Origin: Amphibacillus xylanus NBRC 15112
GTDB taxonomy: Bacteria; Bacillota; Bacilli; Bacillales; Amphibacillaceae
Assembly: GCF_000307165.1 (NCBI RefSeq)
Contig: NC_018704.1
Coordinates: forward strand, 2,108,001-2,172,000
Direction: 5' to 3'
Length of the DNA: 64,000 nucleotides
Position 1 is the first letter of the stretch; every line of letters begins with the position of its first letter. This document shows, piece by piece, positions 3,760 to 59,604 of this stretch. Both the position numbers and the translations under genes were made by a program. The notes under the pieces were generated by a model that did no database searches, was not told the origin of the DNA, and saw only the letters and a list, made by a program, of their open reading frames with translations.

Positions 3760-3916
3760 GTGGGAATTAAAAAATTTGAGTGCGAACGCACTACGATATG
3801 GTGCGAATTATGAGGATTGGGTGCGATCGCACTACGATATGGTGCGAATTATGAGGATTGGGTGCGATCGCACTACGAGATAGTGCGAATTTTCTATTTC
3901 AAGTGCGAACGCACCC
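3760..3916. repeat. Family-1 iteron-like array, upstream of NERD1
   Basis: Cores start at 3780, 3801, 3821, 3842, 3862, 3883 and 3903, plus a degenerate GTGGGAATT unit at 3760, all in 20/21 bp phase. A and B units alternate perfectly. Two B units carry the perfect 12-bp palindrome GTGCGATCGCAC; others have GTGCGAACGCAC. Two successive 41-bp A+B dimers (3801-3841 and 3842-3882) are identical except near the end, suggesting recent duplication. Confidence 0.92.
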
Positions 3917-17359: not shown

Positions 17360-20300
17360 TTATTTATAAACTGGTATATCTAGGTGTATTGTATATGAAT
17401 CTAATTGTTGATACAGATTATAGATTGTCCTAGTTTGTTTAGCAGCCCATCCGATATCTGTTGCATATTGATGGGTGACATTTCCTTTTTCCATTGCCCC
17501 AGGATTCCAACGCATTTTATATAAAGTATTTTGTCCAGCGTTAACATAGCCATTACCTATAAATTGCGCACCTTCAACAATTGCTGTTTCTACTGAGAAC
17601 CATCCATTATCATAGGCTCTTTGAGCCCCGCAATCTCTTGCACACCTATCAAAAGCCCCTATCCCATATACGTTATAAACTTTCTTAGGAGAAATATCTA
17701 TAATAATAGGGTTTCCGTCTGCGTCACGTACAATATTACCTTTACTATCTCTCTGAGTCCATTTACTAATTCCATTAGCAAGCTCTGATGATCCGTTTCC
17801 TGTTTCTAATTTAGCGTGTGATACTAGATAAATATCGTTGATTTTATATTTATTACCTGCTTCGATAAAATATCTCCCTTTACCAGTTAGCACACCATTA
17901 TTATTTAATACTTTGTTGAGTTCCGTAACACTTGCAGAACTATTCCGTGATAAATCTAAAAACTGGAATTGTTGTCTGTCATCGTTTATAAAATTTAAAG
18001 GATTGAGATAATACATTACATCAGCAGGATGAGCATGTCTCCATTGATGATTAGAGCTGTATTCTATTGCATACCATCCATTGTACTCTTCTAATACTTT
18101 AACAACGTGACCATTAGGAAGTGAACCTATTGGATCTTTTTTTGTATTAGGTTCTGGTCTAACATTAAGGTTTGTAGCTGTTACTTTATTGTTTTTATCT
18201 ATATATTCTTTAGAAACCCAAGCATATTTCATATCTGTCTGAGGTGAAGCTTTCATTTGCATTTCTACTGCTTCACTTAAAGTTAAGTTGTACTCACTCA
18301 CTCTAGCTACATTTACGTAACTTGAATGTAGCCAGATTCTTTTACCATTTAACATTCCACGATACCAAGTATTATTGCCAACCTTCTCAGTTAGATCTAC
18401 TTTAAACTCTTCGTTCTTATATATATCCATATTTTCAAATACTATATCTTTCGCTCCGCCCCAAGCTTTAGAATAGGCGATTCCATTACCTTTAATGTAA
18501 AATAATTTCGCCTTTTTATCGACAGTAATATGCGAGTAAGTTGACAGGTCTTTTGCATTAACCCAACCAACAGTCCCTTTAGTACTGCTTGGTGACGTAC
18601 TGATTAAATAAAATATTTGATCATGTATTTCAGCCTGCTTTTTAATATAATATACTGCGTTTGTATATTGAGCCCCAGCAATAAATGCTGTAGAAGGGTC
18701 CCCTATAGTTGGATATATTTCAACACTTCTGTTACGAATATGACCCAATCGGCTTGTTCTACTTTCTGTTTTGGTGGTTACATAACTAGAATGTAGCCAT
18801 ATTGTCTTACCATTAAGTACTCCTCGATACCAAGTATTGGTCCCAACTTTTTCTGTCAAATTCACTTTAAATTCCTGGTAAGCATATTGTGACATGTCCT
18901 CATAAACCAAATCCTTGGAGCCACCCCATGCTTTTCTGTAAGCTTTTCCAGTACCCTTAAAGTAAAGTGTTTTTGCATCCCTATCCACTCCTACATGAGA
19001 ATAGGTAGATAGATCCGATGCTTGGACCCAACCCACTAGTCCCCTAGTATCACTTGGTGACGTACTTATCAGATAATACAATTGTCCATTTAAACTCGAT
19101 TGGCTTTTAATGTAGTAAACTGCATTCGTATATTGAGCTCCAGCCACTTCAAACGATGCATTACTTTCTAGACTAGAATATATCTTCACATTTCTATTAC
19201 GAATATGGCCAAGTCGACTTGTAGGACTGCCACCACTACTTACCAAATCAGAAGAATGTATCCACACTGTTTTTCCATTTAATGTTCCTCGATACCATAT
19301 ATCATTGCCTACTTTTTCGGTTAGATGTACATTAAATACATGATCCTTATATTCAGATAAATCATACACAATATTTTGGGAACCACCCCACGCTTTGTCA
19401 TAAGAATTCCCAGCTCCCTTAATATAAAAAGTCTTAGAAATTTTATCTACACCCACGTGAGAATAAGTAAATAAATCTGATTCTTGAACCCAACCTACTA
19501 CCCCTTTTGAAATACTTGGAGAGGTACTAAGTAAATAATATAGATTCCCATTTGCTTCGGATTGACTTTTAATATAGTAAACTGCATCCGTATACGTTGA
19601 TCCAGCTACTTCAAAAGATGCATTATTTGCTAAACTTGAATATATCTTTACATTTTGGTTGCGAATATGGCCGAGTCTGCTAGTAGGATTCCCTATGTTA
19701 CTTGATAGATAGGATGAATGTATCCATACAGTTTTACCGTCTAAGGTTCCACGATACCATATTTCATTTCCTACTTTTTCAGTAAGATGAACATTAAAGA
19801 TGTGATCTTTGAATTTTGATAAGTCATGAACTAAATTTTTAGAGCCTCCCCATGCCTTATCATAAGATTTTCCATTTCCTTTAATATAAAATGTTTTAGA
19901 TGCTTTATCTACACCCGTATGTGAGTAGGTAGATAAATCTGATGCTTGAACCCAACCTACTAATCCTTTAGAATTACTCGGCCTGGTACTTATCAGATAA
20001 TACATCTTACCGTTTATTTCGGATTGACTCTTAATATAGTAAACTGCATTCGTATATTGAGCTCCAGCCACTTCAAACGATGCATCACTTTCTAAACTAG
20101 AAAATATCTTTACATTCCTGTTACGAATATGGCCAAGTCGACTTGTGGGACTGCCACCAATACTTACCAAATCAGAAGAATGTATCCACACTGTTTTTCC
20201 ATCTAATGTTCCTCGATACCACACATTATTTCCTACTTTTTCAGTAAGGTGAACCTTAAAGATCTGATCTTTGTAATTTGATAAGTCATATACTAAATTT

Positions 20301-20986
20301 TTAGATCCTCCCCAAGCTGTATCATAAGCATTTCCGGTGCCTTTGATATAGAAGTCTTTAGCTTTTTTATCCACACTTACATGAGGATGTGTTGATAAAT
20401 CCGTTGCTTTTACCCAACCAACTACACCTCTAGTACTACTAGCATTATAGCTTATTAGATAATAGAGATTACCATTCACTGTATTTTGCAGTTTAATATA
20501 ATAAACTGCATTCGTATATTTTGATCCAGCTACTTCAAAAGATGAATCATTCTCTAAACTTGCATATATTTTCACATTACCATTACGAATATGACCTAGT
20601 CTACTAGTTGGTGTTGCATTAGGGATAGACATATGTTTCAACTCGTTTATACCTTTAGCATTCACGTTAGTTTCTATCTCTTCACTCTCAGCTTGAAGCG
20701 TAAAAGCTTTTTCTTTGATTTCTTCAGAGATAATTTGTTTATCTGTCTTTATTTCAACTATTTGATCTTTTTCATTATTATCTTCATCAATTATATTCTT
20801 CATACTATTCTCAGTTTCATCCAAATCATCTGTAGCATTTTTTCCTTCTACAACATACTGCTCATTTTCCGGATTAAACTCAGGCGTGGCTATATCATTC
20901 GCTTCTAAACTTTCTGCTAACACACCATAAGGAGTAACTGAACTAAGAATCAATAACGTAACTAGTATTGTAGCAATTTTCCTCAT
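17360..20986 (-). CDS. Secreted GW-repeat N-acetylglucosaminidase (autolysin)
   Basis: 1208 residues. A signal peptide (MRKIATILVTLLILSSVTPYGVLAES) is followed by an acidic linker to about 120. Then come five tandem units of about 154 residues (about 127-895), each starting TSRLGHIRN and each holding two GW-type modules (GVVGWVKATDL and WYRGTLDGKTVWIHSS), giving ten GW modules. An SH3-like module follows (about 925-985, VTATNLNVRPEPN), then a C-terminal glucosaminidase (about 1030-1200) with the catalytic Glu in SHAKLETGNGSS. GW modules are known to bind lipo- or wall teichoic acids; the enzyme cleaves the glycan backbone of peptidoglycan, for daughter-cell separation or turnover. SD GGAGGTAAG precedes the ATG. 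It lies in the teichoic-acid island, which fits its docking ligand. A 30-bp near-palindrome lies about 125-155 bp upstream. Confidence 0.93.
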   Translation of the reverse strand: MRKIATILVTLLILSSVTPYGVLAESLEANDIATPEFNPENEQYVVEGKNATDDLDETENSMKNIIDEDNNEKDQIVEIKTDKQIISEEIKEKAFTLQAESEEIETNVNAKGINELKHMSIPNATPTSRLGHIRNGNVKIYASLENDSSFEVAGSKYTNAVYYIKLQNTVNGNLYYLISYNASSTRGVVGWVKATDLSTHPHVSVDKKAKDFYIKGTGNAYDTAWGGSKNLVYDLSNYKDQIFKVHLTEKVGNNVWYRGTLDGKTVWIHSSDLVSIGGSPTSRLGHIRNRNVKIFSSLESDASFEVAGAQYTNAVYYIKSQSEINGKMYYLISTRPSNSKGLVGWVQASDLSTYSHTGVDKASKTFYIKGNGKSYDKAWGGSKNLVHDLSKFKDHIFNVHLTEKVGNEIWYRGTLDGKTVWIHSSYLSSNIGNPTSRLGHIRNQNVKIYSSLANNASFEVAGSTYTDAVYYIKSQSEANGNLYYLLSTSPSISKGVVGWVQESDLFTYSHVGVDKISKTFYIKGAGNSYDKAWGGSQNIVYDLSEYKDHVFNVHLTEKVGNDIWYRGTLNGKTVWIHSSDLVSSGGSPTSRLGHIRNRNVKIYSSLESNASFEVAGAQYTNAVYYIKSQSSLNGQLYYLISTSPSDTRGLVGWVQASDLSTYSHVGVDRDAKTLYFKGTGKAYRKAWGGSKDLVYEDMSQYAYQEFKVNLTEKVGTNTWYRGVLNGKTIWLHSSYVTTKTESRTSRLGHIRNRSVEIYPTIGDPSTAFIAGAQYTNAVYYIKKQAEIHDQIFYLISTSPSSTKGTVGWVNAKDLSTYSHITVDKKAKLFYIKGNGIAYSKAWGGAKDIVFENMDIYKNEEFKVDLTEKVGNNTWYRGMLNGKRIWLHSSYVNVARVSEYNLTLSEAVEMQMKASPQTDMKYAWVSKEYIDKNNKVTATNLNVRPEPNTKKDPIGSLPNGHVVKVLEEYNGWYAIEYSSNHQWRHAHPADVMYYLNPLNFINDDRQQFQFLDLSRNSSASVTELNKVLNNNGVLTGKGRYFIEAGNKYKINDIYLVSHAKLETGNGSSELANGISKWTQRDSKGNIVRDADGNPIIIDISPKKVYNVYGIGAFDRCARDCGAQRAYDNGWFSVETAIVEGAQFIGNGYVNAGQNTLYKMRWNPGAMEKGNVTHQYATDIGWAAKQTRTIYNLYQQLDSYTIHLDIPVYK
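18300..20608 (-). repeat. Five tandem 462-bp coding repeats in the autolysin gene
   Basis: Each unit encodes one approximately 154-residue double-GW block. Units 2-4 are the most alike (identical TSRLGHIRN and AGAQYTNAVYYIKSQS stretches); units 1 and 5 diverge more, the pattern expected when internal copies are homogenised by recombination. Confidence 0.85.
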
Positions 20987-30070: not shown

Positions 30071-30645
30071 TAGTTGAGTGGTGGAAATGGAGTTAAGTTG
30101 CGGGGGTAAGCAGTCAATTTGGGGGAAATGTAGTCAGGTTTTTGAAAATGCACTCAAGTTCGCGGAAATGCACACAAGTTCGAGAAAATACACTCAAGTT
30201 CCGAGAAATACACACAAGTTCGAGAAAATACACTCAAGTTCCGAGAAAATACACTCAAGTTCGAGAAAATACACTCAAGTTCCGAGAAATACACACAAGT
30301 TCGAGAAAATACACTCAAGTTCCGAGAAATACACACAAGTTCCGAGAAATACACTCAAGTTTGCGAAAATACACTCAAGTTCCGAGAAATACACACAAGT
30401 TCGAGAAAATACACTCAAGTTCCGAGAAATACACACAAGTTCGCGAGAATACACTCAAGTTTGCGGAAATACACACAAGTTCCGAAAAATGCACACAAGT
30501 TCAAAGAAATACACACAAGTTCCGAAAAATACACACAAGTTCGAGAAAATACACTCAAGTTTCGAGAAATACACTCAAGTTCCGAGAAATGCACACAAGT
30601 TCCGAGAAATACACACAAGTTTGAGAAAATGCACTCAAGTTCCGA
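30071..30645. repeat. Family-2 iteron-like array, solo locus
   Basis: Twenty-five well-conserved units (plus-strand anchor CACWCAAGTT at 30151, 30171 ... 30231, then 30252 to 30632) repeat every 20 bp with a single 21-bp step. Four decayed units at 30071, 30091, 30111 and 30131 remain exactly in phase. On the minus strand the unit is ACTTGWGTGYATTTYNNNGA. ACTTGTGTG and ACTTGAGTG units tend to alternate, giving a 40-bp dimer in part of the array. No NERD gene is nearby; the matching one is at 53720. Open reading frames across the array are artefacts of the 20-bp (60-nt) period. Confidence 0.95.
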
Positions 30646-30660
30646 GGCATTGTCGCCAAC

Positions 30661-34550: not shown

Positions 34551-34811
34551 CTACTTATCAGCCGATAATTTCTGGTATTTTCGTTTCGTTGCTTCACCAC
34601 CTCTTAAGTGGCGAATTGATTTGTGGTATTCAAGAATTTGTTTAACTTCTTTGGCAAGTGTGGGATTTAATTCGGGTAATCGTTCTGTTAAATCTTTGTG
34701 AACAGTACTTTTTGACACCCCGAATTCCTTTGCGATCGTTCGAACAGTTTTACGGGTGTCAATGATATATCGTCCTGTTCGAAGTGTTCTTTCTTTAATG
34801 TAATCATGCAC
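34551..34811 (-). CDS. spoIIID: Sporulation transcriptional regulator SpoIIID
   Basis: 86 residues from a GTG at 34811 (SD GAGGAGG, 9 bp), starting HDYIKERTLRTGRYI. The HTH is TIAKEFGVSKSTVHKDL and the C-terminal helix SIRHLRGGEATKRKY matches SpoIIID, the mother-cell regulator that acts between sigma-E and sigma-K. It is slightly shorter at the C-terminus than the B. subtilis protein (93 residues). Classical order: spoIIID followed by mbl. Confidence 0.96.
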   Translation of the reverse strand: MHDYIKERTLRTGRYIIDTRKTVRTIAKEFGVSKSTVHKDLTERLPELNPTLAKEVKQILEYHKSIRHLRGGEATKRKYQKLSADK

Positions 34812-34975
34812 ATCATTTGCCTCCTCTTGTTGTCTGGTCAAGGTGTGGGAGTTTGGATAGCACGAATAAATGATGAATGATTCAGTTATGAAAATCCTCA
34901 GACCTACTTTGTTGTTTGTACCATTTTATTATCAAAATGTTTTGAATATGCGTGTAGGTTGAATTTTGGCATAAT

Positions 34976-35010
34976 AAAAAGCCGAACCATTAAATTAGGT
35001 TCGGCCTTTT
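34976..35010 (-). terminator. Terminator of the receptor-peptide operon
   Basis: AAAAGCCGAACC pairs with GGTTCGGCCTTTT (one bulge); on the minus strand the stem is followed by TTTTTATTAT. Confidence 0.9.
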
Positions 35011-35025
35011 CGGGTGCACGATCAG

Positions 35026-35244
35026 CTAGAAAATCTCCCCGTGCTCAGGATCGCTGAAGATTTCGCCATGTTCCGGATCACTGAAAATTTCTCCATGCTC
35101 CGGATCACTGAAAATCTCCCCATGTTCAGGATCACTTGCTTTGACACTGGCAGCCTCGACAGAAGGTGTAAGTTCTAGTTGCATGACTGACAACATTCTA
35201 ACAAACATGAGTGTAACAATAACTTTCGCTATTTTACGCAACAT
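35026..35244 (-). CDS. Secreted signalling-peptide precursor with four SDPEHGEIF repeats
   Basis: 72 residues from the ATG at 35244, with GGAGGTGA 5 bp upstream (an in-frame TTG at 35259 overlaps this SD). Basic start MLRKIAK, a hydrophobic stretch at 8-23 and an A-rich cleavage-like region (TPSVEAASVKA, about 26-36) form a signal peptide. Residues 37-72 are four exact head-to-tail copies of SDPEHGEIF and then a stop. The four 27-bp units differ only at synonymous positions (for example GAT-CCT-GAG-CAC versus GAT-CCG-GAA-CAT), so the peptide itself is under selection. It begins 40 bp after an AimR-like receptor gene on the same strand. It is probably cleaved and re-imported as a short pheromone (inference). 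Confidence 0.8.
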   Translation of the reverse strand: MLRKIAKVIVTLMFVRMLSVMQLELTPSVEAASVKASDPEHGEIFSDPEHGEIFSDPEHGEIFSDPEHGEIF

Positions 35245-35284
35245 ACCTGTCACCTCCAAATATTCATTTATGAATTAACTGAAG

Positions 35285-36283
35285 CTACAGTGTACGCAAT
35301 GCTGTTAATGGGAGACGTGCAAAAAAATGATCGCTACGTTGCTCTAAGAATTCATTGTACGATTGAAGTAAAATGCGACGATTTTGGAAAGCACGACCAA
35401 TATAATACTTGGTGAATGGTGTATCTTCAGTTACTTCTGATAAAATACGCTGTGCTGTACTAAAATCTCCTCGTGCAAGTGCTAAGTGAGCTTGTTCGCT
35501 TTTAATCGGTGTATCTAGCTGATTCGGTATGTTAAAATGGGCATAGATAAATGGACGAGTATTATTTTCAACACTTGTGATCAATCGTGGTAAATTATTT
35601 TCCTTTGCAATTCTAATTGTTTCATCTAAGTGATAATTCGCTAGTTCAAAATCTTCAAAAATATAGGATAGACTCAAATTAATGTGTAGATTGGCAAGGT
35701 AGCGAATATTTGTCGTATTCACTAATGCATCAAAGCCATATTTTCTAGCTAAGACCATCTCATTACGCTTCCAATAATGATGGAATAAAACCATGTTCAT
35801 CCTTTGCTTAAAAAGCGGTTTTAAAATAGGATCCGTTACTGCATATAGCTTTCTAATTAGCTCCTCTAAGCGATTGGCTAAAATGCCATATTCAAAGATA
35901 TCAAAATATAGTGCAATTTCTAAAAATAATTGGATACATTGAAGCGCTGCGTCCTCCGTATTAAAATGTTGTACCAACTCAAGCAGCTGACTTTTAGAGC
36001 GGACTCGCTTTTGTTTCATTAAAAACAAATCATAAATAAATGCCCATTCTCTATTCACTTTTGAACGACTATTACGATTACGTTCTAGTAATTGTTCAAA
36101 CTCAGGCAAAAATCCATTCATTAATAAAAATTCTAATCCAATACATTGGGAATATAGATCATTCGTAGAAACAAAAAAAGCTTTAAGCTTATCTGGATGC
36201 GTATTAATATCGCTATTTAATTGTAGCCAACTCAAATATTGATGCGCGTCTTTAAACTTAACTTGACTTGGTTTAATTGACAT
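35285..36283 (-). CDS. AimR-like TPR peptide receptor lacking an HTH domain (RRNPP-type)
   Basis: 332 residues from the ATG at 36283 (SD GGAGGGG). The chain is all helical with TPR-like repeats. Segments such as LANLHINLSLSYIFEDFELA and the C-terminal HFFARLPLTALRTL correspond to the conserved ends of AimR-family arbitrium receptors. AimR proteins of phages carry about 40 additional N-terminal residues forming an HTH; here the similarity starts directly at the helical linker, and the upstream in-frame extension (to 36382) is not HTH-like. It therefore probably acts by binding a protein, as Rap proteins do, not DNA (inference). The partner gene directly downstream encodes the repeated peptide. 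Located between spoIIQ and spoIIID, among sporulation genes. Confidence 0.75.
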   Translation of the reverse strand: MSIKPSQVKFKDAHQYLSWLQLNSDINTHPDKLKAFFVSTNDLYSQCIGLEFLLMNGFLPEFEQLLERNRNSRSKVNREWAFIYDLFLMKQKRVRSKSQLLELVQHFNTEDAALQCIQLFLEIALYFDIFEYGILANRLEELIRKLYAVTDPILKPLFKQRMNMVLFHHYWKRNEMVLARKYGFDALVNTTNIRYLANLHINLSLSYIFEDFELANYHLDETIRIAKENNLPRLITSVENNTRPFIYAHFNIPNQLDTPIKSEQAHLALARGDFSTAQRILSEVTEDTPFTKYYIGRAFQNRRILLQSYNEFLEQRSDHFFARLPLTALRTL

Positions 36284-36421
36284 TAATACCCCTCCATTCC
36301 ACTCTAGTCTAATAATAACTCTATTATTACATATTTTCATTTTTTTACAATAGATTTGCGCAAATAACTTACATAAATTCATGCAAATTTGACATAATTA
36401 TGCGTTTTTTGTCAATTAGAC

Positions 36422-36460
36422 AAAAAAGCACAGTACTTACATTACGAGTACTGTGCTTTT
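36422..36460 (-). terminator. spoIIQ terminator
   Basis: AAAAGCACAGTACT pairs perfectly with AGTACTGTGCTTTT; the minus strand continues with TTTTTTG. Confidence 0.92.
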
Positions 36461-36466
36461 GGCATA

Positions 36467-37237
36467 TTAGGTTTGTGCTCTAGTTAGTCCAGATTCAAGC
36501 TCTGGCTCAGGGTTTTTAGGCTCTTTTTGATCATCATCCACTGTTAAGTCAGCAACTGGTTTTTCGAAATATGATTCTGGATTTACCGGTTTGCCATCTT
36601 TACGAATTTCAAAGTGGACGTGTGTACCCTTATCTTTGTTAAATAAATTCGTTCCTGCTTGTGCTAGCACTTCACCTTGTGAAACTTTTTGCCCTTCTTC
36701 AACAACGACATCTGTTAGACTTGAGTAGTACGTCGTCACGTCATGGTCATGCTTTAACTGAACAATGTAGCCAAGCAGTGGATTTTCTTTCACCTCTACT
36801 ACCTCACCGCTTAAGGCAGCTACAACTTGTAATGGTTCATCGCTAGTTGCAGCAATATCAATCCCTTGGCTTTGATAGTATTTATTGTTGTAAAATACTA
36901 GTGCTTGTTCCTGCTCTTCTTGATCAGCATCATGATCATAAAACTTCGTGACAATTTGTGTACGACTCTCAGCTAAAACAGGTAAACTAATATTCTCTAC
37001 TGGTGTTGTTACAGGCTCTGATGGCTCTTCTCGGTCAAGTGCATTGTCGCCCCAGAGATCGTCCTGATAATTAAAATCAAGATTTATATCTGGCTCAGCA
37101 ATTCGATTTGCATTTTGATACCATAGCACACCTGTTAATAGAAGTGCTGCTACAGCAAGATAAAGCGCCGGGAAAAAGCCTTTTTTCCTAACAATTCGTT
37201 TCCAGTGAGATTTTAGCCCACGTTTTTCCTCTTTCAT
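36467..37237 (-). CDS. spoIIQ: SpoIIQ, forespore membrane protein with degenerate LytM domain
   Basis: 256 residues from the ATG at 37237 (SD GAGGTGATAATT). One membrane helix at about 23-40 and an outside M23/LytM domain (about 130-235). The late motif HVHFEIRKDGKPVNPESYF is kept, but the first zinc ligand is missing: the usual HxGID is SQGIDI here, as in B. subtilis SpoIIQ, which is not a peptidase. It spans the forespore membrane and links to SpoIIIAH in the feeding-tube/engulfment channel. The C-terminal tail is acidic and Pro-rich. Confidence 0.93.
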   Translation of the reverse strand: MKEEKRGLKSHWKRIVRKKGFFPALYLAVAALLLTGVLWYQNANRIAEPDINLDFNYQDDLWGDNALDREEPSEPVTTPVENISLPVLAESRTQIVTKFYDHDADQEEQEQALVFYNNKYYQSQGIDIAATSDEPLQVVAALSGEVVEVKENPLLGYIVQLKHDHDVTTYYSSLTDVVVEEGQKVSQGEVLAQAGTNLFNKDKGTHVHFEIRKDGKPVNPESYFEKPVADLTVDDDQKEPKNPEPELESGLTRAQT

Positions 37238-37322
37238 AATTATCACCTCAGCAACCATTGTGATCAGAAAGAGGCATTTATATACATTTAATTTGATATT
37301 TTTAAATTTTTTTCTAGAAAAA

Positions 37323-41228: not shown

Positions 41229-43385
41229 TTAATGGATCGTGTGTTGGTAATATGTCGTTTCATTGTCTGTGGTGATTGTGACATTGAGTAAATATTGGTC
41301 TAGTTGCTTTTCATCTGAAAGATCAATTGTTGTTTCGAATAATCCTGCTTCAAGATTTTCTGCATATAACAGTTCGCCTAAGTATGCGTAAGTGACTGGA
41401 TCGTAAAGCTCGATCATTAACGATTCGGTTGTGTTAGCAAGTTGGAGGCGTATATGATAAATTTGTTCATCTTTATAGCTTTGTTCAACTTCAAAACCAG
41501 CTATGTGTGGAAATTCAGCTGTTTGATTTATGAATAAGTAAGGTAAGTGATAATCTTTACGATCAATTTCTACTGTTAGATAGTCTTGATAAATTCCTGT
41601 TTTAAGTTGATCTGGTCTAATTGACAGCTGAATCGGTAAGGTTTTTGCTTCGTTTGGGTTAAGCGTTGTCGATTTTGGTAATGTCCATCTTACACCTTTT
41701 TTAATTGGTGGACGGCTAAATCTGACTTTAATCGGGGCATCTGACACATTCGTAATCGTTACATGTTCTGTTTGTCTATTTACGCGTTCGTCAATTAAGC
41801 CAAAGTTAATCATTGAGTTTGTAATTAAAACTGATGTGTGAATAGATTTGCTTAGATTAACTTCTCCCATTCCTTGTTCAGTTGGCGTCTGATCGTCGAT
41901 TCTGTTAGCTTGAGTTAATAGTGCTGCTTTTAATTGAGCGGGTGTCCAATTGGGATGTGCTTCTTTTAAAACGGCTAATGCTCCAGTGACATAAGGTGCT
42001 GCCATACTTGTTCCTTGCAGACTTGCATATCCATTTGGAATTGTACTCATAATGTCAACACCAGGTGCAACAATATCAGGTTTGATCTCCCAATTTGCGG
42101 TGACCGGACCACGTGAACTAAAGTTTGCAATATGATTTTCGCGTGTTTCATATTTTGTTTTTAGCCAAAGTTGATTTGATCTTTCAATTTGCTCCATTAG
42201 CCATTCGCCATCATCTTGTGAAATAAAAACAGCTGGAATGTCTAGTGTTTCACTTCCTTCAACTCCTGCTTCGATTGGATCAGGAGAGTTATTAAAAATG
42301 ATTACCGCCTCTGCATTTGCTTGGATCGCGTTGGTGATTTTTTCTGCAAAGCTAATTTCGCCTCTTTTGAATAAAACAATTTTTCCCGTTAAATCTGGTA
42401 GTGCATCGATGCCTAGTCCGTGATATTCAACTGAATAGTCGCGATTAAGTGTCCAGTCTTTCGTATTGGAAATTTGTTTAATTTGAATCTGTTTATTTTG
42501 CTTTGGTTCAATGAGGATCGGTGTTTGGTATTTTTGTGTTGATGCACCAACTGAGATTGCATCTGTTGCTGTTGCTGGTGATCCGACAGTCCATTCGTTT
42601 GGACCGGAGTTGCCGTTGGCGATCACAACTGATACACCATGCTTGATTGCTTGATTAACTGCTAGACTCGTTGGATAATCTGGTCCATTAACTCGATTGC
42701 CTAGCGATAGGTTAATGATATCCATACCGTCGTTTACCGCTTTTTCAATTGCTGCGATCACTTGGACAGATGTTCCAAATCCTCCTGGGCCAAGTGCGCG
42801 ATAACCGTAAAGTTCAGCATCTGGTGCAACACCTTGAACTGTTCCATTTGCTGCAATTATCCCAGCAACATGTGTACCATGTATTGTTGGAATCCCTTGA
42901 GTCGATGTCGTTTCCATCGGATCATCATCAAAATCAACCAAATCATAGCCACCTTGATAATTTGCTTCAAGATCAGGGTGTGTATAGTCTATCCCCGTAT
43001 CGATCACACCAATTTTTACGCCTTTTCCTGTGTATGTGTGCTGATCTGCATTTTTTGGACGGCTCGGTATTTTCCCTTGCTCAATGAACTGAACTTTCTC
43101 TGGTGTGACAGAATATGTCGTAATCGGATATGCCTGTTTGACAGCTTCATCTTCAACAATTCGATCAAGTTGATGCATTTGTCCTTCAATTGCGATGCCA
43201 TCAAATAGTGTCTCAAATGTTTCTAAAATTGTTACCCTAGGATAGTCACGATCTAGTGTTTCGATAAACTCATCTGCTGGTACATTCAGCTCAAGAAGTA
43301 ATCGCTTTGGTTGGTGAGGTGACTGCGCTTGTAGTGTAATTGGTATAGATATGATTAATAAAAATAATATGATGGCACGTTTCAT
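41229..43385 (-). CDS. Vpr-like secreted subtilisin-family serine protease
   Basis: 718 residues: signal peptide (1-20), I9 propeptide region (about 27-90), then the S8 domain with Asp129 (GVIDTGIDYTHPDL), His169 (HGTHVAGII) and Ser460 (GTSMAAPYVTGAL). The oxyanion Asn lies in ANGNSGPNEW. A PA-type insert (about 320-415) splits the catalytic domain, as in Vpr. A beta-rich C-terminal region (about 520-718) follows. It is an extracellular protease for protein scavenging. It sits in the slot between upp and ywzB that in B. subtilis holds atpIBEFHAGDC. SD GGGAGCGATC precedes the ATG. Its 5' flank carries a family-1 array. Confidence 0.94.
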   Translation of the reverse strand: MKRAIILFLLIISIPITLQAQSPHQPKRLLLELNVPADEFIETLDRDYPRVTILETFETLFDGIAIEGQMHQLDRIVEDEAVKQAYPITTYSVTPEKVQFIEQGKIPSRPKNADQHTYTGKGVKIGVIDTGIDYTHPDLEANYQGGYDLVDFDDDPMETTSTQGIPTIHGTHVAGIIAANGTVQGVAPDAELYGYRALGPGGFGTSVQVIAAIEKAVNDGMDIINLSLGNRVNGPDYPTSLAVNQAIKHGVSVVIANGNSGPNEWTVGSPATATDAISVGASTQKYQTPILIEPKQNKQIQIKQISNTKDWTLNRDYSVEYHGLGIDALPDLTGKIVLFKRGEISFAEKITNAIQANAEAVIIFNNSPDPIEAGVEGSETLDIPAVFISQDDGEWLMEQIERSNQLWLKTKYETRENHIANFSSRGPVTANWEIKPDIVAPGVDIMSTIPNGYASLQGTSMAAPYVTGALAVLKEAHPNWTPAQLKAALLTQANRIDDQTPTEQGMGEVNLSKSIHTSVLITNSMINFGLIDERVNRQTEHVTITNVSDAPIKVRFSRPPIKKGVRWTLPKSTTLNPNEAKTLPIQLSIRPDQLKTGIYQDYLTVEIDRKDYHLPYLFINQTAEFPHIAGFEVEQSYKDEQIYHIRLQLANTTESLMIELYDPVTYAYLGELLYAENLEAGLFETTIDLSDEKQLDQYLLNVTITTDNETTYYQHTIH

Positions 43386-53190: not shown

Positions 53191-53245
53191 TACTTTTATT
53201 TATTTTGATTGACAGATCCGGTTGGGAGATGTTGTCTTTTGGTGA

Positions 53246-53706
53246 ACTTGAGTATATTCTTGAAAACTTGTGTGCATTTTCGCGGAACTTGTGTGTATTC
53301 TCGAAAACTTGTGTGTATTTCAGCGAACTTGTGTGTATTCTCGAAAACTTGTGTGCATTTCGCGGAACTTGTGTGTATTTTTGAAAACTTGTGTGCATTT
53401 CAGTGAACTTGTGTGTATTCTCGAAAACTTGTGTGCATTTCCCGGAACTTGTGTGTATTTTTGAAAACTTGTGTGCATTTTCCGGAACTTGTGTGTATTC
53501 TCGAAAACTTGTGTGTATTTCAGCGAACTTGTGTGTATTCTCGAAAACTTGTGTGCATTTTCGTGAACTTGTGTGTATTTTCGGAAACTTGTGTGCATTT
53601 CTCGGAACTTGTGTGTATTTTCGGAAACTTGTGTGCATTTCAGCGAACTTGTGTGTATTTTTGAAAACTTGTGTGTATTTTCGCGAACTTGTGTGCATTT
53701 TCAATA
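53246..53706. repeat. Family-2 iteron-like array, downstream of NERD2
   Basis: Twenty-three units ACTTGTGTGYATTTYNNNGA on the plus strand start at 53246, 53266, 53287 and then every 20 bp to 53687. Units ending in TCGAAA or TTGAAA alternate with units ending in CRGCGA, CGCGGA or CCCGGA, giving a 40-bp dimer. The first unit is slightly degenerate. Weak units at 53707 and 53726 extend into the last codons of NERD2. Confidence 0.96.
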
Positions 53707-59235: not shown

Positions 59236-59604
59236 CTATTCGTTCATTAATTGATTTATCTTTTCTTTGACATCGATTAAATTAAATGGTTTGGAAATAT
59301 AACCTTTTACTGTTTGATATTTTTTGGTCAACGCTTTTGCATTTTCGATTAAGCCGCTGATGAAAATTGTCGGTACTTGGTAGCCTGATTCCTCTAATAT
59401 CGCTACCACTTCTGAGCCGCTTTTTAGAGGTATTTGAAAATCTATAATCATTAAATCTGGTTGATGTTCTTTTACATAGTTAATCGCAGAGATCCCATCT
59501 TCACAGCTCGTCACTTGATAGCCTTCACCACGAATTACTTCTTCAAGCAAAAGACGAATCCCAGCTTGGTCGTCTACTATTAAAACATTTTTAGTCACTT
59601 GCAT
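59236..59604 (-). CDS. spo0F: Spo0F, sporulation phosphorelay response regulator
   Basis: 122 residues, a lone receiver domain. Acidic pocket VDD at the N-terminus (ILIVDDQ-like VLIVDDQAGIRLLLEEV), phospho-acceptor Asp in LMIIDFQIPLKSG, switch Ser in FISG and Lys in YISKPFN. It takes phosphate from KinA-type kinases and passes it to Spo0B. The start could be the ATG at 59604 (very close to GGGAGGAG) or the GTG two codons later (better spacing). Sits between pyrG and fba as in B. subtilis. The loop 'PLKSGSEV' differs from the usual 'PGMDGIEI'. Confidence 0.93.
   Translation of the reverse strand: MQVTKNVLIVDDQAGIRLLLEEVIRGEGYQVTSCEDGISAINYVKEHQPDLMIIDFQIPLKSGSEVVAILEESGYQVPTIFISGLIENAKALTKKYQTVKGYISKPFNLIDVKEKINQLMNE

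Follow-up and report, generated by a model that had tools for sequence, protein, structure and literature searches.

An HTH-less AimR-family receptor with a tandem peptide precursor beside spoIIQ and spoIIID: a candidate chromosomal peptide-signalling system in Amphibacillus xylanus and its relatives

A small gene ending in four identical peptide units, directly downstream of a receptor-like gene, raises the question of whether the chromosome of a spore-former carries a peptide-signalling system akin to the arbitrium of Bacillus phages, and of what such a system would act upon. The gene pair lies in a stretch of 64,000 nucleotides of the Amphibacillus xylanus NBRC 15112 chromosome (the window), on the minus strand, in the order murA, spoIID, spoIIQ, receptor, precursor, spoIIID, mbl, with murA and mbl assigned from sequence and an MreB-family profile (Table 1). 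The nearest relatives of the genome include Amphibacillus species. The original prediction, made from the sequence alone, described a receptor of 332 residues, a precursor 40 bp further on and four SDPEHGEIF units running to the stop codon, and these particulars are confirmed. The receptor ATG is preceded by a ribosome-binding-site-like ggagggg.

Table 1. Positions of the receptor-precursor pair and of related features in the window
Feature	Position	Strand	Remarks
Receptor, HTH-less AimR family, 332 aa	36283-35285	-	Pfam/NCBIfam profiles, AlphaFold2 model, PDB match
Pheromone precursor (putative), 72 aa, signal-like N-terminus	ATG 35244 to stop 35026	-	alternative TTG start 35259
Four tandem SDPEHGEIF units up to the stop	35029-35136	-	core octapeptide DPEHGEIF
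spoIIID, downstream neighbour	34551-34841	-	TIGR02844 E 2.8e-41
spoIIQ, upstream neighbour	36467-37258	-	NF053738 E 1e-87
Promoter-like TTGTAA-16-AATAAT, 5' of receptor	36323-36350	-	
Near-consensus Spo0A box TGTCAAA, one mismatch to TGTCGAA	36388-36394	-	111 bp 5' of start codon
Near-consensus Spo0A box TGTCTAA, one mismatch	36416-36422	-	at -139
Short inverted repeat TTGTCTAATTGACAA	36423-36409	-	contains the TGTCTAA box
Terminator-like inverted repeat followed by T's, 3' of spoIIQ	36425-36459	-	absent from scan list
Terminator-like inverted repeat with T-run, 3' of peptide gene	34973-35006	-	absent from scan list
Subtilisin-like protease, S8 and PA domains, signal-like N-terminus	41229-43385	-	sole S8 match in the genome
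Stand-alone receiver-domain protein, 122 aa, candidate Spo0F	59236-59604	-	

The window also holds repeats of other kinds. Arrays of 20/40-base units lie at 30079-30646 and 53244-53699 in opposite orientations, and their 15-mer AATACACACAAGTTC, when up to one mismatch is allowed, has 241 clustered occurrences in the genome, against none for the reversed control. A 462-base unit is repeated about 3.5 times at 18995-20608, and two short arrays of 41-base units, at 2622-2738 and 3776-3891, have GTGCGAACGCACTACGAT or close forms in common.

Profile searches place the receptor in the AimR family. Pfam AimR (PF22871) matches residues 35-330 with E 2.6e-59, and NCBIfam AimR (NF038310) matches with E 2.5e-42 and 145.2 bits (cut-off 70) over profile positions 53-365 of 365; as the latter match begins at position 53, the N-terminal (HTH) part is missing from the receptor. 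Pfam, searched to an E-value of 1, gave no Rap match, its one match besides AimR being to HrpB1_HrpK and below threshold; NCBIfam likewise gave no Rap match but AimR alone, and a sequence search of the PDB returned arbitrium receptors only. Prediction of the structure of the receptor alone, proposed at the outset as a check, bears the assignment out. The AlphaFold2 model, built from six sequences (pLDDT 82.7, the last 16 residues being unsure), matches SPbeta AimR with a TM of 0.75 (Foldseek) and Z 27.5, and AimR structures score 25.8-27.5 as against 14.2-21.0 for Rap structures. In 5xyb_B, AimR 41-375 is the counterpart of model residues 8-332. The best chains of Rap, whose N-terminal three-helix bundle binds a response regulator, align starting at model residue 39-44.

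The DNA-binding domain of AimR comprises residues 1-73 in five helices, according to the accessible text of PMC6340889, and the portion missing from the receptor would be about the first three helices, the HTH proper. The 183 bp between the receptor and spoIIQ are occupied by an inverted repeat and a promoter-like stretch, which leaves little space for an HTH in another frame upstream. Among the 13 peptide-contact residues of AimR named in the same text, E300, D360, F276 and F362 map to receptor E263, D318, F245 and F320. These four are identical in 29-30 of 31 relatives; L363 maps to F321, a phenylalanine in 28 of the 31. The other eight contacts (N202, L205, N206, R228, N239, L242, Q299 and N329) are not conserved in identity. 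By sequence and by predicted TPR fold, the protein belongs to the AimR family over its whole length and lacks the HTH, as had been supposed.

Receptor matches occur in 83 of 150 related genomes, and 73 of these are within the 90 genomes of the same family; 115 stretches, covering 116 matches outside the window's genome, were fetched for comparison. Searches by blastp with the window neighbours found 72 receptors beside spoIIQ or spoIIID (spo loci hereafter), each in a different genome and the window included; the count omits L141 and L146. The spo-locus receptor is present in 71 of the 90 sampled family genomes, the 72nd locus coming from another family. Both genes are in view in 66 of the 72 loci, spoIIQ upstream and spoIIID downstream, with spoIIQ alone in four and spoIIID alone in two; in L039 and L042, spoIIID lies approximately 7 and 10 kb away. 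The stretch before the core is 45-65 residues long in 69 of the 72 spo loci, against 78-93 in the HTH-bearing relatives L142, L144, L145 and L147, with starts picked by a simple rule and the HTH judged by length and by eye. Co-occurrence of the receptor with sporulation itself was considered as an argument and judged weak: spoIIID is absent from 5 of 17 receptor-negative family genomes, 12 of which keep it, versus 0 of 13 tested receptor-positive ones.

A quick maximum-likelihood tree of 110 rows sets 103 apart from the seven others (L142-L148), two of which, L143 and L146, lack a clear HTH. The spo-locus receptors fall in a clade of 78 rows, and a second HTH-less clade consists of 17 rows without a motif peptide. 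L135 (the same receptor as L133), L141 (broken) and L150 were omitted from the tree, and L149, L151 and L152, matches that blastp did not recover, were left out. In a class-wide sample of 398 genomes, 14 had a match, and the 12 rows outside the family comprise eight open frames of 387-402 residues and four shorter ones. A phage origin was rejected: a search of 50,697 phage records with the window receptor (P0001) gave no match, the scan of viral contigs with alignment A2 found no relative, and the chromosomal place is conserved in 71 of 90 family genomes. One remote plasmid match to P0001 has 23.5% identity.

The small gene is conserved along with the receptor. At 47 of the 72 spo loci the next gene is a small ORF with a hydrophobic, secretion-type N-terminus (signal peptides were judged by hydrophobicity) and DPxxG near its end, and in 40 of these 47 the octapeptide DPxxGxxx forms the exact C-terminus, as in DPEHGEIF, DPGHGTIF, DPGYGDID, DPDYGEIG, DPGLGDMD and DPWLGELD. 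The nonapeptide first described holds as the repeat of the window; as the conserved unit it gives way to the octapeptide, since the preceding residue varies among relatives (S, G, R, K or N). A control was run because the precursor search had itself targeted the DPxxG motif. Across 103 loci, with L142-L148 again omitted, DPxxG falls within the last 19 residues in 51 of 135 hydrophobic small ORFs downstream of the receptor. The opposite strand of that stretch gave none among 202 such ORFs, and the remainder of the loci one among 1,715 (1/445 on the same strand, 0/1,270 on the other), the single match adjoining another receptor. A stricter DNA pattern of the octapeptide followed by TAA or TAG, which is blind to TGA stops and looser motifs and missed the precursors of L101 and L112, recovered 9 of 9 positive controls and found 13 places in 36 whole genomes, 10 of them beside a receptor. 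In the 21 peptide-less genomes it found only G008, beside a second receptor, and an unconvincing frame in G045; in six genomes without the receptor it gave nothing beyond a similarly unconvincing frame in G031. As far as sequence comparison goes, receptor and precursor form a pair conserved beside spoIIQ and spoIIID, which upholds the prediction of a chromosomal pheromone-type gene pair.

The number of octapeptide units ranges from 1 to 14, and 12 of the 51 peptide loci are multi-copy. The nearest relative, L038, has four units and a degenerate one, and Amphibacillus sp. MSJ-3 (L039) has 14, of which 13 are identical; L040 has four, one altered, L041 four, L043 nine of two kinds (position 3 being E or G), L067 nine, L068 five, L090 three, and L072, L074 and L085 two each. 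Parsimony requires at least six switches between single and multiple copies on the tree. The four DPEHGEIF units of the window differ by seven synonymous and no non-synonymous variant changes, where the expected synonymous fraction is 0.18 (P 6e-6). The synonymous share exceeds expectation in all 12 multi-copy precursors and significantly so (P<0.05, uncorrected simple binomial) in 11, the exception being L040 with P 0.064; L043 is the least clear, with four synonymous and three non-synonymous changes. These codon patterns show purifying selection on the predicted octapeptide, which has been multiplied in several lineages. The unit of L068 ends in F and those of its single-copy genus mates L059 and L071 in D, and an F ahead of the cut would suit a subtilisin-like protease. 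A terminal F as the mark of multi-copy precursors was rejected, as units end in D in L067, L072, L074, L085 and L090 and in V in L040.

Tandem repeats are common in the window, and the repeat ORF could in principle be a chance or non-coding repeat next to an unrelated TPR protein. The differences between units are mostly synonymous, however, the precursor is conserved in relatives and the receptor meets the AimR profile at the E-value given above. Together, the purely synonymous differences in the window and the motif control indicate that the units did not arise by chance, and this explanation, already refuted by the comparative data, retains practically no probability.

Four further precursors, at first counted as missing, belong to one genus (L103, L119, L122 and L126, in G005, G048, G073 and G085) and have no leader. 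These ORFs of approximately 15-22 residues lie directly 3' of the receptor and end in DPDYGDIG or DPDFGDIG; codon changes between species are mostly synonymous, and a terminator-like hairpin follows in three of the four loci, as judged by eye. Their existence lends some support to the view that the octapeptide is an intracellular ligand or a cis-acting cofactor and no cell-to-cell signal, with the leader dispensable or otherwise used. Against it stand the secretion-type N-terminus at 47 of 72 loci and the tandem multiplication, which suits secretion followed by cleavage outside the cell; LCP-type leaderless signals, moreover, also act between cells according to the available text of PMC10518010. 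We regard the intracellular role as improbable, and a peptide pheromone system as very probable from the sequence evidence.

With the leaderless variants included, 51 of the 72 spo-locus receptors have a peptide of their own. Receptors without a peptide gene among relatives, which the original prediction would have counted against itself, do exist, at 21 of 72 spo loci, where no recognisable peptide gene adjoins, and in all 17 rows of the second clade. Median root-to-tip distances of 1.24 for peptide-less receptors versus 0.97 (P 0.006) suggested faster evolution of the former, which was dropped because the rows are not independent and terminal branches are alike (P 0.18). A broken spo-locus receptor in G034 (L141) is in two pieces, one with an in-frame stop, and adjoins a precursor-like ORF with the altered motif DPAYEDVG; this is perhaps a case of coupled decay.

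Eight loci were viewed at the second site, seven of the second clade (L077, L084, L104, L107, L113, L116 and L120) and L127, which branches outside it. By eye, ywiB and argS follow the receptor in all eight, and speE and speB lie upstream in seven, these not being in view in L120; speE, agmatinase and DUF1934 are profile-confirmed in L084. Where one contig holds both copies, the speB-argS receptor lies approximately 42-102 kb from the spo-locus one, and those without a motif peptide are possibly listeners to the same peptide.

Further receptors were seen in passing. In another family of the order, HTH-less receptors stand in tandem in G140 (L133/L135), and one in G095 (L140) is accompanied by a precursor with DPGDPGMG repeats. 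The second receptor of G008 (L112), away from the spo locus, adjoins a leader-bearing precursor ending in DPGYGDVD, and another ORF with this ending, without a clear leader, follows approximately 500 bp on. The precursors of two HTH-bearing AimR proteins of the same family, L142 and L148, end in DPGGGIGN and DPGGGGGNG.

Cross-talk of these DPGGG peptides with the chromosomal code is possible, and the presence of HTH-bearing AimR with such precursors in genomes of the same family is in line with an AimR that was domesticated and either overhears the arbitrium signals of phages, as an eavesdropper, or disrupts them, as an HTH-less dominant-negative partner. Eavesdropping has been proposed in PMC9765709, whose accessible text reports a propeptide candidate for 11% of AimR genes outside prophages. 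The spo-locus receptors, on the other hand, mostly have a peptide of their own, their synteny is conserved together with the Spo0A boxes described below, and the window's genome contains a single AimR match over the cut-off. Domestication of this kind accordingly appears to us a rather remote prospect next to a dedicated signalling pair.

The core 0A box is TGTCGAA, and many true targets have near-consensus boxes (PMC3485338, accessible text). Within 180 bp upstream, on either strand, TGTCGAA is found in 50 of 71 spo-locus receptors (L132 being omitted from the promoter count), as against a shuffled mean of 1.1; within 250 bp it occurs in the same orientation in 58 of 71 and in reverse in 3, the background being 0.022 per window and strand. 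Stacking of 59 sites brought out chiefly the box, as TTGTCGAACGATT, together with a -10-like element. The four leaderless loci have TGACGAACGATT upstream. Patterns for SigH, SigE, SigF, CodY and cre upstream of the receptors were at or near the shuffled level. In the window species and L038 the exact box is absent upstream of the receptor, the window having one-mismatch boxes alone. The promoter-like element of the window has similar -35 and -10 sequences, by eye, in L038 and L039, while promoter-like matches across the region are, taken together, about as frequent as chance predicts (13 found versus 11.7 expected). Receptors of the second clade mostly lack the box, which occurs in 3 of 18, with L127 included.

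Most promoters of the spo-locus clade hence contain a Spo0A box by sequence, and control by Spo0A across the clade is likely. Fifteen genomes, 12 of which were picked because their receptor promoter has the 13-mer TTGTCGAACGATT or nearly so, contain it 19 times: 11 occurrences are in receptor promoters, five in gaps between sda and yqeG, and three elsewhere. In these gaps (L172, L173, L176, L180 and L185) it lies approximately 210-335 bp before sda, encoding a sporulation inhibitor (profile-confirmed in L185, recognised by sequence pattern in the other four). As the box faces yqeG and not sda, the link to sda is uncertain and the argument for the phosphorelay is weakened.

The original prediction of a link to sporulation gains from both the conserved place beside spoIIQ and spoIIID and the boxes in relatives. 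The receptor might still regulate another process, such as competence, exoenzymes or antimicrobial production, its place being merely stable. Such a role would accommodate the second HTH-less clade, between speB and ywiB/argS and away from sporulation genes, and the retention of spoIIID in most receptor-negative genomes; the Spo0A boxes speak against it, not decisively, as Spo0A also governs non-sporulation genes. We consider it unlikely, if a serious contender.

The reading that we prefer, and hold to be moderately probable as a whole, is a chromosomal peptide-signalling system of arbitrium lineage, controlled by Spo0A, linked to sporulation entry and acting via a protein partner. The pair would be regulated by Spo0A~P. 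The precursor would be exported by Sec and processed into octapeptides, a step for which the single S8 protease gene, approximately 6 kb away in the window, possibly supplies the enzyme. Several units would raise the signal yield per precursor. The octapeptide would be re-imported by an oligopeptide permease (of three SBP_bac_5, OppA-type matches in the genome, one has an internal stop) and would then bind in the TPR groove of the receptor, which would switch the contact between receptor and target. As the receptor lacks the HTH, a protein target is most likely by analogy with Rap, and the receptor would restrain or gate the phosphorelay, or else a nearby step of sporulation, according to cell density. 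The most attractive version has it act on the phosphorelay itself, under Spo0A control, as a brake or gate; that the target belongs to the sporulation pathway, argued by analogy, is a tentative proposition to which we give slightly less than an even chance.

A broader evolutionary account, for which we see barely more than an even chance, is that an ancient chromosomal branch of arbitrium receptors shed its DNA-binding domain, separately from the loss in Rap, and turned into a quorum system linked to sporulation, controlled by Spo0A and using the code DPxxGxxx. An early split would have produced a signalling copy at spoIIQ/spoIIID and, at speB-argS, an orphan copy that listens, with the number of units in the precursors evolving between 1 and 14 and the leader dropped in one genus. 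If so, the 'viral' arbitrium-family receptors would also be a widespread signalling system of spore-formers, some AimR homologues described as orphans or eavesdroppers could be assigned peptides, and a further independent case, besides Rap, of a peptide receptor without HTH shifted to protein targets would be at hand. With natural precursors of 1-14 copies and a leaderless variant to compare, the design and processing of precursors lend themselves to direct testing by means of synthetic octapeptides.

Several elements of this system have known counterparts. The precursor was initially set against a one-copy norm; its tandem design stands, and the norm does not, since the accessible part of PMC9765709 describes RRNPPA precursors, those of AimR among them, in which an identical pheromone is present up to six times, and multi-copy Phr precursors are known, the processing of duplicated Phr pheromones having been studied (PMC11343458, accessible part). 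The leaderless variant of one genus resembles the leaderless communication peptides, for which, unlike here, the receptor is RopB (PMC10518010, as available). The spo-locus clade lies outside prophages, like the chromosomal 'putative eavesdropper' AimR homologues of PMC9765709, and may belong among them as they are outlined in its accessible text; it differs in the conserved peptide ORF adjacent to 51 of 72 members. Novel RRNPP clusters, a DPG motif and the Alkalihalobacilli subfamily 21 are reported in the available portions of PMC10075063 and PMC12700828. The Paenibacillaceae AloR, subfamily 08 and subfamily 21 treated there are likewise chromosomal and grouped with AimR, and subfamily 08 has DPG-type peptides as at the spo loci, but AloR and subfamily 08 are described as HTH-9TPR, and the available portions of the two papers contain no HTH-less system beside spoIIQ/spoIIID. 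Nor did searches of openly accessible papers find an HTH-less AimR clade at this place, a DPxxGxxx code or a Spo0A link. Multi-copy pheromones and chromosomal AimR homologues are already published. Given the scope of the searches, there is weak evidence that the HTH-less spoIIQ/spoIIID clade, its peptide code and its link to Spo0A are new.

The closest parallels are with Rap-Phr and arbitrium. Like Rap, a TPR receptor without a DNA-binding domain (PMC9765709, accessible text), the receptor would have its own secreted-type precursor; unlike Rap, it is AimR by sequence, with no Rap match and higher structural scores for AimR, and the loss of its HTH would be separate from that of Rap. With AimR-AimP it shares the receptor family, the predicted TPR fold and a peptide gene directly downstream with a C-terminal pheromone, and the HTH-bearing relatives L142 and L148 with their DPGGG precursors are likewise AimR-like. 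It departs from arbitrium in the absence of the HTH at the spo locus, in the conserved chromosomal place beside sporulation genes, in an octapeptide of the form DPxxGxxx with variable copy number, and in the Spo0A box found in relatives of the window.
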